This document shows positions 32,745-40,811 of a stretch of 64,000 nucleotides of DNA, piece by piece. The DNA comes from Hondaea fermentalgiana. Lineage: Eukaryota; Sar; Bigyra; Thraustochytrida; Thraustochytriidae. The stretch's first letter is position 1. Every line of letters begins with the position of its first letter. The translations under genes were made by a program, and so were the position numbers. The notes below the pieces were generated by a model. That model saw only the letters and a program-made list of their open reading frames with translations, was not told where the DNA came from and did no database searches. The DNA lies in contig NPFB01000015.1 in assembly GCA_014084085.1 (NCBI GenBank), forward strand, positions 31,453 to 95,452, written 5' to 3'.

Positions 32745-35700
32745 ATGGGCCGCATCCTGGGCACCGTGGACTGCGTCGCGCAGTCCGCCGACCTTGTGCT
32801 GGCGGCCACAAGCGGCGACGGCTACTTGCGCGTATGGAGCAAGGAGGAAGGCGCCCTCGTCTTGGAGATGAAGACGCCCAACAACATGCCGGCCAATACA
32901 GTGGCCGTGCAGGACAATCTGGCCGCCGTGGGGACTCTCGCAGGCGGCCTGTTTCTCATTGACCTGGGCACCTCCTCCGTCCTGCACGCCCTGGTGGGCC
33001 ACACCGACCATGTCAACAGCGTCATCCTCGACGGCAACCAGATCATCTCCGGGTCCGAGGACCAGACTATTCGTGTTTGGGACAGAATCAGCGGCCGAGA
33101 GATCTTGACGATCGACGCTCAGGTGGAAGTCAAGGCCCTTGCCGCCCACAAGAAATTGCTCGTGGTTGCGTCGCAGGACAACATCGTGCGCGTCTTCGAC
33201 CGGGCCACCCGTCACCGACGACCACGCCGCGTCCTCAGGCAGGCGACAGGCAAGGTCACAGCGGTCGCGATTGACGCGCAGCGTATGGCGAGCGGGTCGT
33301 ACGACAGAAAGGTGAGGGTCTACGCCGTGCCCTCCTTCAGGCTCGTCCGCGTGCTCAAAGCGGACGGCATTGTGACCTGTGTCGCGCTCGAGGGAGACCG
33401 CATCGTGAGCGCGTCGTTTCCCACGATCACAGTCTGGGATGCGCGCAACGGAGACACGCTGCACGTCCTGCAAGGACACTCGAGCATTGTATGGACGGTC
33501 TCTCTTTTGGGCCCGGACGTCGTGAGCGGATCTGGGAACTCCGCTGGATCTGCTGACATCAGCGTGCGTGTCTGGGATGCGGAGACGGGCGCCTTGACGC
33601 GCGTGCTAAACGGCACGGAGGCTGTGCGGCCCATCGAGGAAGTGCTCGGCGCCGCGACGGGAGCCGCGGCTTCTGCGGCGGCGGAGAAGGTGCTCAAGGC
33701 GGCGCTGGCGAACGGAGACCCCGCAGAACTGGGCCGCTGCAAGCTCATGATAGTCGGCCAGTGCGCCGCCGGCAAGACGTCCACCGTGCGCTCGCTGCTG
33801 GGCATGGCGCCCGTTGAAGAACACATCTCGACGGTGGGCGTCGAGCTCAAGCGTACCGATGCAGAGTCGTGGGAAGAGATCAAGGACCTTGACAGCGGAT
33901 TTGAACGCCAGGTGTATCGCGTGGCAGCGCTGCGCATGGCCGTGCAGGAGCAAGCTGCGAGCAAAACACCGCAATCCACTCCCATGCGTATCTGCCGCAA
34001 GGCATCGAATCTCGTCTTTGGACGCCGACGTTCCTCTGCCGCGCGGCCTTTCGTTGCAGAGGTGCAGGTGGAGCTGGTGCCTGAGGCCGAGGTGGCGCAG
34101 CGGTTCGAATATGCGGAGATCGAGGATATGGCCGGCAAGACGCAGTCGGACCAGAAGATCTACTTTACAATCTGGGACTTTGCGGGCCAGGACGTCTTTT
34201 ACGCGCTGCACCACATTTTCCTCACGCGCGAGGGCGGCGTCTTCATGGTCGTCTTCGACATGCAAGAACTTCTTAGCAAGCAAGAGCGAGCCGTGGAGTA
34301 CCTTTCCTTTTGGCTCAACTCGGTCAAGCTACGTGCGCCAACTGCACCCATTATTCTGGTGGGCACGCACTATGACGAGGCGTCCGTTGACCTCAACGAG
34401 GTGGAGGAGATACTCATCGGACAACTGTCTGTTGACGAAAACGAAAACATCGTTCCAAACTCGAGAGCAAGCCTGAATTTCTTTCCTATCGACAACATGA
34501 GCTCCGAGCCAGATCGTGCCTCAGAATTGCGCGTTGCGGTCGAAGCAAGCGCTTCGTCGCTCGAGTCCGGCTCGCGAAAGATCTCCCTGCGGTGGCTCAA
34601 GGTGTTGGACGACCTGCTAATGCTCGACTGCGACCATGTGCCTTTCAAGGCAGCGCAAGAACTCGCAACCAAGTATCACGTCGGTGAACAGACCGATGAG
34701 CTCTTAAGCTTCTTCCATGAACTCGGCATGCTCGTCCATCTCCGCGCAACAGATGTCTTGTATGACAATGTCGTCCTGAATCCGCAGTGGCTCCTGAACA
34801 AACTTTCGCGCGTGATTGCGGACGACATCCATGTCGACCAGATACGGTACGACCATGAACTTCAAAACGCTGGTCTAGAAAAGGACTTTGAGTGGCTGCG
34901 CAAATGCGGTATCGCCACGCTCAGTCTGCTGAGGTTTCTATGGAATGATGAAGAAGTCGACTTCCTCGTGGACTTCATGCGCGGCGCCATGCTACTGTCA
35001 GATTGGGCGTTTCCGGAAGAGAGCCTCACATCGGGCCGTCAAAGCGAACCGCTCTATTTGGTGAGCAGTTTACTCAAAAATTCAACAAGCGCTGAGCTTG
35101 ACGCAGAGATTGCTGATATGGACATCGGTTTGACATGCGTTTTGGACTTTTCCAAATTCTTTCTCCCGGATGGCGTCTTTGCGCGCCTGCTCTCACTTTG
35201 CGTTCAGTACAGTGGAAATTTTGGGGCCATTTCGCGCGCCCCTCAGCTCGCGGGAAACCAGGCGATCGTTCACTTTAATTTTTCTGATTTTGCGCTCAAG
35301 CAGACCAAAAATAAGATCTGGATTCGTATCGAGCGGAAATCCAGAAAGCCCGCGAGCACGCTTAAGACACTGGTGGGCATGTTCCGAGGCGCACGGAACG
35401 CGATCTTTCGTGATTTGCCTTGGGAGCTTCTTCTTCAGTCACCTAAGGACGCGTCTGCATTGTGTGCGTACGATGAGGTGGCTCGGGCGCGTACATCCGG
35501 CGCAGATTCCGTCTTATCCACGAGCAAGAGAATTACAAGTGTAGCAGACTTTGACCCTTTTTTCCACGACGGCTCGCTGGAAGAAGACGAAAAAGGCTCC
35601 GAGACTGTTGAGCAAGCCACTGCAGCGGATTTTGATCCGTTCCGCCAAGATGACTCGCTGAAAGAAGACGAAACAGATACCGAGACTGTCGAGCAGGCAA

Positions 35701-36233
35701 GTGTAGCAGACTTTGACCCACATTTCCAAGATGGTTTGCTGCAAGAAGACGAAAACGACACCGGTACTGTCGAGCAGGTTTCACTCCAGGTTTTGCCAGC
35801 GGGTCTCGAATATCATGTCTACTTGAGCCACCGACAGAGGAACGCCCGTGAAACATGCAATCTCATTGCAGATAAACTCGAAAGTCGAGGGCTTAAGGTC
35901 TGGTATGATCGAGAAAGTAGAGGCGACCTAGCAAAGGAAGTCATGCGTCGCGGCATTCGCGCGTCAAAGTGTTACCTTCTTTTTCTCTCCAAGTCCGTAT
36001 TCATGGGCGCGGTGCTCATGGAGCTCGAGATAGCGCTGCAGGAAAAAAAGCCTGTTTTGCTTGTGCACGAGAACGATCCAGATCGAGCTGGCTTCGTCAC
36101 CTTTACAAGTTACATTGAGTCGGCACCGAAGGATGCCAAGCATCTCTTACGCGAGTCGGAGTCCATACCTTTCCAGCGTCGTCTGACGGAACACTTTTAC
36201 GAACAGCTCATTGCACGAATTAACGCCAGCTAA
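32745..36233 (+). CDS. WD40-ROC-COR-TIR multidomain protein (ROCO family)
   Basis: A 1162-aa protein from the first ATG at 32745. Residues 1-285 are about seven WD40 blades (SGDGYLRVW, SGSEDQTIRVWDR, SGSYDRKVRVY, SADISVRVWDAETG). A ROC GTPase follows: P-loop GQCAAGKTS (about 338-346), switch-II-like WDFAGQDVFYALHH (about 474-487) and base-recognition VGTHYDEA (about 537). The COR region runs to about 900, including HELGMLVHL and VVLNPQWLLNKL. Then three tandem 27-residue repeats (933-1013). A TIR domain (about 1020-1162) opens with EYHVYLSHRQ, has VWYDRE and LFLSKSV, and Glu1093 (VLMELEIAL) aligns with the NADase glutamate of SARM1. ROCO proteins are GTP switches that dimerise through COR. 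TIR domains signal by assembly or NAD+ cleavage. An immune or stress-sensing role is an inference. Confidence 0.92.
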   Translation: MGRILGTVDCVAQSADLVLAATSGDGYLRVWSKEEGALVLEMKTPNNMPANTVAVQDNLAAVGTLAGGLFLIDLGTSSVLHALVGHTDHVNSVILDGNQIISGSEDQTIRVWDRISGREILTIDAQVEVKALAAHKKLLVVASQDNIVRVFDRATRHRRPRRVLRQATGKVTAVAIDAQRMASGSYDRKVRVYAVPSFRLVRVLKADGIVTCVALEGDRIVSASFPTITVWDARNGDTLHVLQGHSSIVWTVSLLGPDVVSGSGNSAGSADISVRVWDAETGALTRVLNGTEAVRPIEEVLGAATGAAASAAAEKVLKAALANGDPAELGRCKLMIVGQCAAGKTSTVRSLLGMAPVEEHISTVGVELKRTDAESWEEIKDLDSGFERQVYRVAALRMAVQEQAASKTPQSTPMRICRKASNLVFGRRRSSAARPFVAEVQVELVPEAEVAQRFEYAEIEDMAGKTQSDQKIYFTIWDFAGQDVFYALHHIFLTREGGVFMVVFDMQELLSKQERAVEYLSFWLNSVKLRAPTAPIILVGTHYDEASVDLNEVEEILIGQLSVDENENIVPNSRASLNFFPIDNMSSEPDRASELRVAVEASASSLESGSRKISLRWLKVLDDLLMLDCDHVPFKAAQELATKYHVGEQTDELLSFFHELGMLVHLRATDVLYDNVVLNPQWLLNKLSRVIADDIHVDQIRYDHELQNAGLEKDFEWLRKCGIATLSLLRFLWNDEEVDFLVDFMRGAMLLSDWAFPEESLTSGRQSEPLYLVSSLLKNSTSAELDAEIADMDIGLTCVLDFSKFFLPDGVFARLLSLCVQYSGNFGAISRAPQLAGNQAIVHFNFSDFALKQTKNKIWIRIERKSRKPASTLKTLVGMFRGARNAIFRDLPWELLLQSPKDASALCAYDEVARARTSGADSVLSTSKRITSVADFDPFFHDGSLEEDEKGSETVEQATAADFDPFRQDDSLKEDETDTETVEQASVADFDPHFQDGLLQEDENDTGTVEQVSLQVLPAGLEYHVYLSHRQRNARETCNLIADKLESRGLKVWYDRESRGDLAKEVMRRGIRASKCYLLFLSKSVFMGAVLMELEIALQEKKPVLLVHENDPDRAGFVTFTSYIESAPKDAKHLLRESESIPFQRRLTEHFYEQLIARINAS
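35541..35783 (+). repeat. Three tandem 81-bp coding repeats
   Basis: Three in-frame 81-base units (35541, 35622, 35703), each coding 27 residues of the form xADFDPxxxDxxLxEDExxxxTVEQxx. They link COR and TIR. The copies have diverged at the DNA level, so the expansion is not very recent. Confidence 0.95.
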
Positions 36234-38477: not shown

Positions 38478-40811
38478 ATGGAGGAAGAGGGCAAGGGCGT
38501 CGAGGAGTTCGCTCCCGTCGTGAGATTTTACAAGCAAAAGAAAAAGCTCAAGGATGAAGACTTTGAGTGTGTGGATAATGGGCTGCACGCCTTGGGCCGA
38601 CAGTTTGACGTCTTTGGCGTCTTTGACGGCCACGGCGGACCCGACGCAGCGCAACTCGCCTCGCAAAAGTTCTGTAGGACGCTGGTGGAAACTCTCCAGC
38701 GCGCAGATAAAGCCGACGCTGACGCAGAAAACGGGACCGGGTGGGAGCAGCGTGTGCTGCCGCAAGCGCTCATCGATACCTTCGAGCTGCTCGACACCGA
38801 ATGCACAAAGGAGTTCAAAACCTCGGGTACCACGGCTACTGTCATGGTCGTAACGCGCTCGCCCAGGATACAAAGCGACGGCTGGGCACTTGCAACGATT
38901 GCAAATGTTGGTGACTCCCATGCCCACGCGGAAATCGCTGGGTCGATCGTGCAACTTTCTGCAGATCATCGTCTGGACAACAATGAGGCCGAGCGCGAGC
39001 GTGTCACCCGGGAGGGGGGCGAGATTGCCCGCTGCTCCGGCGTCGTGGACGATGACAAAGCCGACGACCCGCTGCGGCTGTGGCCTGGAGGGCTCATGAT
39101 GAGCCGTACCATCGGTGACCCCGACGCCAAACAGGCCCTTGCCACCCCCGAAATCACGAATCTGCTTGTGCGACTGCTCGATGCCGACGAAGAGTCTCCC
39201 GTTCCTATACGTGCACTTCTCGCCTCTGACGGACTCTGGGATGCTGTCACGCCCAAGCAAGCGTTCTCCATTGTGCGTAACCGCAACCCGCAAGCTGCCT
39301 CGCAGACGCTCATTCAGACCGCCGTGCGCAATGCAGGCAAGGATCGCGACGACATTACTCTTGTGCTCGTCGACATGGCCGCCGAAGAGGACCATTTTGC
39401 TCACGGCAATCGTCGCCGACTCTCTTCCGTTGCTTCGGCGCGCTCGCACAACCCACCCGTGGCCGCGGCCCTTCCGGGGTCAGCTGCCGCTTCCTTGCGT
39501 CTCTTTCATTGCTGGGATCCACTTGCAGCCGACGCGCCGCATGAGGAAATCGCAAGTGCCGAGTCTGCTCTCGCTGCCGAGCACGAGGCCCGTGAGGAAA
39601 CCTTGCGCGAGGCCCGCGAAGAGCGCGCTCGTGTGGAAGCCGCGCTTCGTGAGAGCATGCAGGACGAAGAGGCCGTGGCAGCAAGACGCGCTGCCGAAGA
39701 AGCAGCTGCCGAAGAACTTGAAAACGAAGGCGAATGGGAACCTGTGAAACGCAATCCCCGACGCGGCGACCGCGCGATCTCGGAACCAGACGGTGAAGGT
39801 TCCCACCAGGATGAAAACAGCGCAGATGGCGACGCTACCAATCAAAATGCTGAGACAACCGATCAGGCCGTCACAAAGAAAAAGGCAGGAACCAAGGGAA
39901 AGAAAAAGGACGCTACCAATGACCGTTCCGCCAATGCTTCCAAGGATGGGCGCAAGCTTTGCTTTTCCTTCAAGAAGTCTGGCCAATGCTCTCGCGGTGA
40001 TCGCTGTCGGTACCTGCACACCGTACCCGAAACTGGGTCGGTTGCCGAAGATGTGTCCTCGGAAACAAATGAGGGCACTGGCTCAAAGAGTGCCGAAGTG
40101 TGCCGTGCTTTCCAGCGCCGATCCGGCTGTCCTCGTGGCAATCACTGCAAGTATCTCCATGTGCGCAAGGAGACCGCCGCGCCGAAAGACAAGGCCGGCA
40201 AGGAAGGAGAAATGTCGTTGACGGAAAACGAGGAGACGACCAATTCTCTCGCGAACGAGGTGACGGAGGATACTGCTGCTTTTGCCAAAGCCGACAAGGA
40301 GAACAGCGCCATCGCTTCCCAGGCTGAAGTGGGAAACTGGGCTGACGAGGTGGAGGTTCCAATGGCTGGCGAGGCTTTGGCTCTCAGTGGGAGCAAATCA
40401 GGTTCTCTTTCCAAAACGTCTGCACCAGAGGATGGCGCCAAGCCAGCTTCTCGCAAGTCCAGCAATGCCAGAACCAGCAAAAAGTCCGACGAGCCGAGGC
40501 CGTGCTTCTCCTTCCAGCGCGATGGGGCATGTCGCTTCGGGGACAAGTGCAAGTTTTCCCATGCCACTACCCTCAAGGCTACCAACAAGCAGTCGTCTGC
40601 TTCTGGCTCGGAGCCTGACAAATTAGGAGGAAGACGGCCTCGTGGCAATGGGTCCCGAGGCAAAGCCAACAAGACAACTTTTCCAGCAGCAGAGGGCAAC
40701 GCGGACAACGAGGCACCTCGTGTGTTTGATGGACCGAAAAAGTGCTTTGCTTTTGAACGCAAGGGCACGTGCAAGTTTGGCGACACATGCAAGTTCGCGC
40801 ATGCTCGTTGA
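38478..40811 (+). CDS. PP2C-type protein phosphatase fused to four CCCH zinc fingers
   Basis: A 777-aa protein, ATG at 38478 (cacgATGG). Residues about 20-300 are a PP2C (PPM) Ser/Thr phosphatase: FGVFDGHGG (about 48-56), SGTTATVMV, ANVGDSHAHA, LSADHRLDN, GGLMMSRTIGD, LLASDGLWDAV (about 248-258) and DRDDITLVLVD, so the metal-binding aspartates are present. The usual GDSRA motif reads GDSHA here. After a charged Ala/Glu-rich helix (about 350-420) come four CCCH fingers of exact spacing C-x8-C-x5-C-x3-H, at about 494, 541, 675 and 755. The last ends three residues before the stop. CCCH fingers of this spacing generally bind RNA. The fusion suggests a phosphatase targeted to RNA or RNP; I recall no standard family with this architecture. 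Confidence 0.93.
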   Translation: MEEEGKGVEEFAPVVRFYKQKKKLKDEDFECVDNGLHALGRQFDVFGVFDGHGGPDAAQLASQKFCRTLVETLQRADKADADAENGTGWEQRVLPQALIDTFELLDTECTKEFKTSGTTATVMVVTRSPRIQSDGWALATIANVGDSHAHAEIAGSIVQLSADHRLDNNEAERERVTREGGEIARCSGVVDDDKADDPLRLWPGGLMMSRTIGDPDAKQALATPEITNLLVRLLDADEESPVPIRALLASDGLWDAVTPKQAFSIVRNRNPQAASQTLIQTAVRNAGKDRDDITLVLVDMAAEEDHFAHGNRRRLSSVASARSHNPPVAAALPGSAAASLRLFHCWDPLAADAPHEEIASAESALAAEHEAREETLREAREERARVEAALRESMQDEEAVAARRAAEEAAAEELENEGEWEPVKRNPRRGDRAISEPDGEGSHQDENSADGDATNQNAETTDQAVTKKKAGTKGKKKDATNDRSANASKDGRKLCFSFKKSGQCSRGDRCRYLHTVPETGSVAEDVSSETNEGTGSKSAEVCRAFQRRSGCPRGNHCKYLHVRKETAAPKDKAGKEGEMSLTENEETTNSLANEVTEDTAAFAKADKENSAIASQAEVGNWADEVEVPMAGEALALSGSKSGSLSKTSAPEDGAKPASRKSSNARTSKKSDEPRPCFSFQRDGACRFGDKCKFSHATTLKATNKQSSASGSEPDKLGGRRPRGNGSRGKANKTTFPAAEGNADNEAPRVFDGPKKCFAFERKGTCKFGDTCKFAHAR

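Follow-up and report, generated by a model that had tools for sequence, protein, structure and literature searches.

A WD40-ROC-COR-TIR protein with a hypervariable propeller face from Hondaea fermentalgiana, a candidate intracellular receptor from an expanded family

The stretch of Hondaea fermentalgiana DNA analysed here, 64,000 nucleotides of contig NPFB01000015.1 (assembly GCA_014084085.1, positions 31,453 to 95,452; hereafter the window), carries a gene for a WD40-ROC-COR-TIR protein. Judged by its sequence features, this protein is probably a cytosolic innate-immune-type receptor of a single-celled stramenopile, in which a ROCO switch would link a WD40 non-self sensor to a TIR effector that probably consumes NAD. 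In general terms, the gene product is likely an intracellular alarm protein, and its unusually large family, with dozens of genes, looks like an immune receptor repertoire. The binding face of its propeller is hypervariable across paralogues, a result that we regard as firm. The stramenopile host proposed in an initial annotation was borne out by exact protein matches to H. fermentalgiana, a thraustochytrid stramenopile.

Gene layout and family in Hondaea

The gene is a single open frame of 1162 amino acids (aa) on the forward strand, from the ATG at 32745 to the stop at 36233, with no internal stop. Pfam matched WD40 (70.4 bits, cut-off 27), Roc (71.4, cut-off 27), COR-A (43.1, cut-off 35.3) and TIR_2 (46.8, cut-off 28) in this order along the protein, which upheld the four-domain order initially annotated together with its TIR and ROC assignments. 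COR-B (PF25497) was absent from the Pfam list of the protein, though the region was modelled with good confidence. The full-length AlphaFold model, built on an alignment of 30 of the 61 proteins of the relative set, had a mean predicted local distance difference test score (pLDDT) of 81.3 and a predicted template modelling score (pTM) of 0.57; because the latter is low, the relative placement of the domains is not readable from the model. It contained the strands of a seven-bladed propeller and folded ROC, COR and TIR domains, with pLDDT below 50 at residues 407-439 and 949-1011. Chance or false domain calls were ruled out by the Pfam scores, the fold matches of the TIR and the AlphaFold model.

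The initial placement of all domains in one exon was supported as well, since the 1162 codons are open and the same fusion lies in one frame in four paralogues (L040, L042, L043 and L044, ~58-66% identity). Both observations stand against a gene-model artefact, in which separate WD40, GTPase and TIR genes were read as one; the open reading frame (ORF) is known from a single genome, which speaks for such an artefact, and we consider it barely credible. The four-domain order is not due to chance, because it is kept in these four open frames; in addition, 7 of the 61 relative proteins (P0001, which is the window protein, P0002, P0005, P0011, P0013, P0014 and P0017) have all four Pfam domains. The features are as follows.

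32745..36233, +, whole WD40-ROC-COR-TIR gene, 1162 aa (ORF, Pfam; L040, L042, L043 and L044 alignable from residue 1)
32745..33632, +, seven-bladed WD40 propeller, aa 1-296, proposed sensor (Pfam, AlphaFold model, divergence profile)
33729..34385, +, ROC GTPase domain, aa 329-547, with a low-confidence insert at aa 407-439 (Pfam Roc 71.4 bits, model)
33756..33779, +, P-loop GQCAAGKT, aa 338-345 (motif)
34176..34190, +, switch II DFAGQ, aa 478-482 (motif)
34362..34376, +, G4-like motif GTHYD, aa 540-544 (motif)
34485..35534, +, COR region, aa 581-930, with Pfam COR-A at aa 616-703 (Pfam, model)
35538..35780, +, acidic linker between COR and TIR (tandem repeat motif; pLDDT <50 at aa 949-1011)
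35802..36230, +, TIR domain, aa 1020-1162, proposed effector (Pfam, fold comparison)
36021..36023, +, codon of Glu1093, putative catalytic glutamate (sequence; column count)

Profile searches of the Hondaea genome yielded 73 TIR_2 matches (68 above cut-off) and 33 COR-A matches (31 above cut-off). On the same strand, 30 of the 33 COR-A matches were followed by a TIR_2 match no more than 4 kb downstream; 43 of the 73 TIR matches had no COR-A nearby. The 30 ROC-COR-TIR loci are a lower bound, because at least six of these 43 TIR loci (C62, C75:64610, C86, C125, C194 and C215) align to the COR-TIR part of the family. Three COR-A matches have no listed TIR; one of them, C13, does carry a divergent TIR, which aligns to the query and has Gln at the column of Glu1093. 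Ten database proteins of Hondaea (P0002, P0003, P0005, P0006, P0008, P0009, P0010, P0013, P0014 and P0016) matched genome loci over 34/36 to 53/53 of their 40-residue windows. The genome counts are lower bounds in this respect too, as no fetched locus matched P0004, P0007, P0011, P0015, P0017, P0018, P0019 or P0020 exactly over the full length; the best genome matches of P0011 and P0017 were 89% and 88%, respectively. The gene model of P0011 (1753 aa) adds a protein kinase after WD40-ROC-COR-TIR and is possibly a merged model, its exact locus not being found in the genome searched. In databases, the family is concealed by labels like “F-box/WD repeat-containing protein 7” and “Ras-related protein Rab-14.”

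Several copies are incomplete. L041 is frameshifted in the TIR, and seven copies (L045-L051) lose their N-terminus at runs of N or contig ends. An exon boundary at residues 330 and 360 of several paralogues was considered and dropped; the ends of these copies were taken as assembly gaps, because N runs or contig ends stand there. Since gaps or contig ends recur in the 5' part of the C206, C233, C105, C212, C102, C25 and C172 copies (four of them at codon 360), the N-terminal repertoire is under-sampled in the assembly.

The genome also encodes other TIR proteins with repeat domains. L070 (C232) and L071 (C228) are NLR-like TIR-NPHP3_N-WD40 proteins, NPHP3_N being NACHT-like, with up to 11 WD40 matches; L069 and L073 combine a TIR with WD40 repeats. 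L011 (C233:62130) is an ANK-TIR protein with both domains above cut-off, and similar TIRs are present in L035, L017, L033 and L026.

Propellers also occur alone. A CaaX-like C-terminal box ends five of the nine solo propellers with a visible stop (L060, L061, L062, L074 and L077; CSIL four times and CLIL once) and is missing from L063, L064, L068 and L075, of which L064 stops at a contig end. The boxed propellers end as if geranylgeranylated and could be membrane-tethered partners or decoys. At two loci, L062 (C233:248002-249754) and C208:41709-43498, a TIR lies ~0.5 kb downstream of a CaaX-ending solo propeller, as a fragment in two frames (L062) or within a 331-aa ORF (C208). By their arrangement, these loci look as if a receptor gene had lost its ROC-COR part.

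Variability of the propeller face

In WD40 propellers the d-a and b-c loops share one face, which is the ligand-binding one. We have compared 13 propellers, comprising six with ROC-COR-TIR (including L041, with its frameshifted TIR), six without ROC-COR in the assembled locus (L060-L064 and L068) and L059, which is interrupted by a gap. The profile along the blade positions had nonsynonymous peaks where strand a begins and in the b-c turn. An earlier blade register, counted from a VRVWD anchor, misplaced blades 1, 6 and 7 and yielded a ratio of nonsynonymous to synonymous differences (pN/pS) of 1.28 (bootstrap 0.98-1.69); it was replaced by a motif. Top-face sites were then defined as the neighbours on either side of V in strand a and of D in “GSxDx,” and the strand limits of the AlphaFold model placed them on the d-a/b-c face. 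The window protein has 27 such residues:

7, 9, 24, 26, 49, 51, 65, 67, 89, 91, 105, 107, 128, 130, 144, 146, 170, 172, 186, 188, 209, 211, 225, 248, 250, 264, 272

Across the 13 propellers, pN/pS was 1.39 at the top-face sites (site bootstrap 1.19-1.67; 0 of 5000 replicates at or below 1) versus 0.45 at the other 273 sites. The positions with six or more residue types were concentrated in the same set (23 of 29, compared with 2.6 expected), and the top-face residues of the paralogues were a mix of aromatic, charged and small ones. In the six ROC-COR-TIR copies alone, the values were 1.22 at the top face and 0.49 elsewhere.

The motif had been chosen after seeing the blade-position profile and was therefore tested on four propellers fetched later. 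Compared among themselves, these had a pN of 0.63 at top-face and 0.29 at other sites (ratio 0.98 vs. 0.50), and compared with the first 13 propellers a pN/pS of 1.25 vs. 0.45. The set of all 17 gave 1.31 (1.17-1.49) vs. 0.45, and the 16 nearest-neighbour pairs 1.49 vs. 0.43. The initial annotation had called the propeller a sensor, and this assignment is backed by the hypervariable top face; we hold the sensor step to be quite likely on these sequence comparisons.

The strength of selection is a separate matter. We have fitted a codon likelihood grid to the 17 propellers, using a tree from all 300 codons with scaled branch lengths. Under F1X4, omega was ~4 at top-face sites, with twice the log-likelihood difference (2dlnL) over omega 1 being 38.1. 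Under F3X4, which allows for the bias in GC content at third codon positions (GC3), omega was ~1.5 and not significantly above 1 (2dlnL 0.6). The remaining propeller sites had omega values of 0.3 and 0.2 (F1X4 and F3X4, respectively). Because the two models disagree, an omega significantly above 1 at the top face is model-dependent. The propeller region also showed low synonymous divergence and a GC3 of 0.76-0.93; the low divergence might reflect gene conversion or the high GC3, the two being not separable. The blades of the window protein differ widely, shifted-blade matches to L059 being ~29% identical, in a comparison that included no dedicated repeat search.

A developmental or housekeeping scaffold family without a defence role could show the same pattern, if each paralogue had acquired a different endogenous partner after duplication. 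The F3X4 estimate, the use of paralogues rather than alleles, and the low synonymous divergence together with the high GC3 of the propeller are compatible with this explanation. Against it, the variability is focused on the motif-defined binding positions with their mixed residues, whereas the 77 other charged or polar sites had a pN/pS of 0.45 in the 13 propellers; moreover, the genome contains the TIR-NPHP3_N-WD40 and ANK-TIR proteins described above, a repertoire typical of conflict systems. We consider a scaffold family of this kind unlikely and favour the non-self sensor.

The ROC-COR switch and the TIR effector

The nucleotide-binding motifs of the ROC domain are intact, and both the P-loop and the DxxGQ-like switch of the initial annotation were recovered (GQCAAGKT at 338-345 and DFAGQ at 478-482), along with GTHYD at 540-544. 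ROC is followed by COR, with Roc and COR-A both above cut-off, as in the ROCO tandem. With the window copy included, GxxxxGK[ST] was present in 9/9 paralogues with sequence at this position and D[FY]AGQ in 13/13 aligned ROC paralogues; the G4-like position read THYD in 11/13 and SHYD in 2/13. The median pairwise dN/dS (nonsynonymous over synonymous substitution rates) of the six copies was 0.29 for ROC and 0.16 for COR. The GTP-driven dimerisation proposed initially found no support. Literature is cited here and below from excerpts of the sources; in that on the bacterial Roco protein CtRoco (PMC6337361), the protein is mainly a monomer when GTP is bound and a dimer when no nucleotide is present, so the direction initially given to the switch is best dropped or left open. 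By analogy, it may be the hydrolysis or loss of GTP, and not its binding, that promotes association.

Both profile and fold place the C-terminal domain in the TIR superfamily. Residue 1093 is a Glu within “MELEIAL,” in register with the catalytic Glu of five solved TIRs, which confirmed the SARM1-like position assigned to it. We have counted this column in a table of 67 TIR rows, drawn from the fetched loci and P0002-P0031 rather than from all 73 genome matches and holding the window sequence twice and some near-duplicates; there were 61 E, 2 K, 1 Q and 3 gaps, so that Glu made up 61 of 64 letters. In a smaller alignment (A1) of 36 sequences, namely 35 of 44 TIR references plus the window's own, the Glu appeared invariant. 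This was due to the chosen rows, as the nine omitted sequences (L009, L024, L025, L038, L041, L054, L056, L067 and L072) include those with Q (L054) and K (L067) at the column, besides the window's own copy (L038), and the 67-row count is the fuller one.

The residue four positions before the Glu weighs against an NADase. It is Trp in all five PDB sequences of solved NADase TIRs compared, with AbTIR, PdTIR, TIR-1 and 7uxr among them, and Ala1089 in the window protein; in the table, this column held Ala in 30/64 and Asn in 15/64 letters. A receptor of unchanged logic could use its TIR as a scaffold, forming TIR-TIR filaments or recruiting partners as TLR/MyD88 do, without NADase activity. The TIRs of MyD88, Toll-type proteins and the IL-1 receptor are indeed among the structural neighbours of the window TIR and, to our knowledge, TLR TIRs carry a similar Glu yet are not classed as NADases. 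On the other hand, SARM1, TIR-1 or AbTir filled the top 32 rows of the Foldseek list and the top 9 of the VIA list, and the Glu is retained at the frequency given above. We regard the scaffold function as fairly unlikely and lean slightly towards an enzymatic, NAD-consuming step, with the NADase effector itself being inferred from the Glu in spite of the replaced Trp. Four weak PADLOC matches were obtained, of which three lie within the TIR.

The window TIR shares its fold and the Glu position with SARM1 and TIR-1, and differs from them by the missing Trp before the Glu. SARM1 has ARM and SAM domains and no GTPase. Neither ARM nor SAM was in the Pfam list of the window protein, which therefore departs from the ARM-SAM-SAM-TIR architecture.

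The acidic linker ahead of the TIR has three tandem 27-aa copies of an FxPFF-like motif (similar to ADFDPFFxDGSLxEDExDTxTVEQ). A related motif is present once in 15 of the 32 relatives scanned, including P0022, P0023 and the Mucochytrium quahogii protein P0026, and may be a docking element.

In the mechanism that we propose, the top of the propeller would bind either a ligand of non-self origin or a host protein that has been modified, and this binding would alter the ROC-COR core in its nucleotide state or in its association through COR. The TIRs, carried on ~60-90 flexible residues, would then be brought into an active assembly and hydrolyse NAD+ or make an ADP-ribose signal, and the NAD loss or the signal would lead to dormancy, death or defence. 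We give this whole chain, from sensor through switch to TIR enzyme, even odds.

Precedents and neighbouring genes

The initial annotation had the TIR replace the kinase of known ROCO proteins. The placement stood, since the C-terminus is a TIR and no kinase was in the Pfam list of the protein; the contrast was overstated, because it is not new in itself and ROC-COR-TIR proteins occur in Nostoc (P0081) and the bivalve Sinanodonta (P0074), both with leucine-rich repeats (LRR; matches below cut-off in P0074), and in three further organisms. These are Aplysia, where some TLR, MyD88 and other TIR proteins have ROCO domains (PMC9334734), Trichoplax, with TIR among its ROC-COR architectures (PMC4104024), and Chondrus, with a TPR-ROCO-TIR protein (PMC11378527). 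Like the Hondaea protein, they join the GTPase-COR core and a TIR on one polypeptide; unlike it, no hypervariable propeller is mentioned for them in the excerpts. The ROC-COR-TIR module is already known, and by domain order the WD40 form is a variant on it. In the open-access excerpts we found no WD40-ROC-COR-TIR protein, no diversified WD40 sensor on ROC-COR-TIR and no expansion to at least 30 loci in a unicellular stramenopile; Teng et al. list at most four ROCOs each in several other SAR species, including Schizochytrium aggregatum (PMC11378527).

WD40 families were in the Pfam lists of nine of the 61 relatives, namely the window protein and eight named Hondaea proteins. No relative found outside Hondaea had one in two protein searches; these need short shared words and scored the best 7988 and 7987 candidates, and could have passed over distant WD40 versions. 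Among the remaining ROC-COR-TIR relatives, P0022, P0024, P0063 and P0065 lack any Pfam domain at the N-terminus, P0025 of Hondaea, P0026 and P0028 show weak matches to LRR or GYF that stay below cut-off, and P0023 has an additional TIR-like stretch ahead of ROC.

Several known systems resemble parts of the protein. Prokaryotic AP-GTPase-COR conflict systems share a ROC-type GTPase with COR, fast-evolving N-terminal repeats and variable C-terminal effectors, and differ in being bacterial and in their LRR sensor (Kaur et al. 2021, PMC8195603). Brown-algal LRR-ROCO candidate immune receptors are likewise a stramenopile ROCO family with sensor sites under diversifying selection; their sensor is an LRR on shuffled exons, and the excerpt reports no TIR effector (PMC11378527). 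LRRK2 and other Roco kinases share the ROC-COR tandem and, as described for LRRK2, a WD40 domain, whereas the window protein has its WD40 at the N-terminus and ends in a TIR. NACHT and NB-ARC, which define NLR/STAND proteins, were absent from its Pfam list, the switch being ROC.

The fungal HNWD NLRs (HET-E and HET-D) also have a WD40 sensor with position-specific diversity on the predicted binding face, at seven variable positions (10, 11, 12, 14, 30, 32 and 39; PMC12222747). Judging by motif spacing, we infer that positions 12, 14, 30 and 32 fit the Hondaea sites if each repeat is granted two additional residues. The HNWD proteins differ in their NACHT switch, HET effector, high internal repeat identity and C-terminal WD40. 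As this closest parallel of position-specific WD40 diversity serves allorecognition (PMC12222747), the Hondaea family might act between cells of the same species, like HET-E/HET-D in Podospora, and not against pathogens; we judge this distinctly improbable.

Returning to the immune-type receptor, our broadest interpretation is tentative, held at slightly less than even confidence. A unicellular stramenopile would keep a large, diversifying intracellular receptor repertoire built on a ROCO GTPase instead of an NLR ATPase, with a hypervariable WD40 and an NAD-depleting TIR. Solo, putatively prenylated propellers would serve as decoys or tethers, separate TIR-NACHT-like-WD40 and ANK-TIR receptors would stand beside it, and the propeller diversity would be convergent with that of fungal allorecognition NLRs. 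Diversified non-self recognition is little known in single-celled eukaryotes, and the family is a testable protist case. It poses the questions of what ligand the variable face binds and whether a GTPase, not an ATPase, gates a TIR death effector, and it offers a natural system for studying how ROC-COR relays a sensor's signal to the effector, a question that is also open for LRRK2.

By Pfam, the flanking genes are ordinary ones: a TCP1/cpn60-type chaperonin lies upstream, while an aldose 1-epimerase and a CCCH-finger PP2C phosphatase lie downstream. In the latter, at 38478-40811 of the window, one open frame joins the protein phosphatase 2C to four CCCH zinc finger matches.

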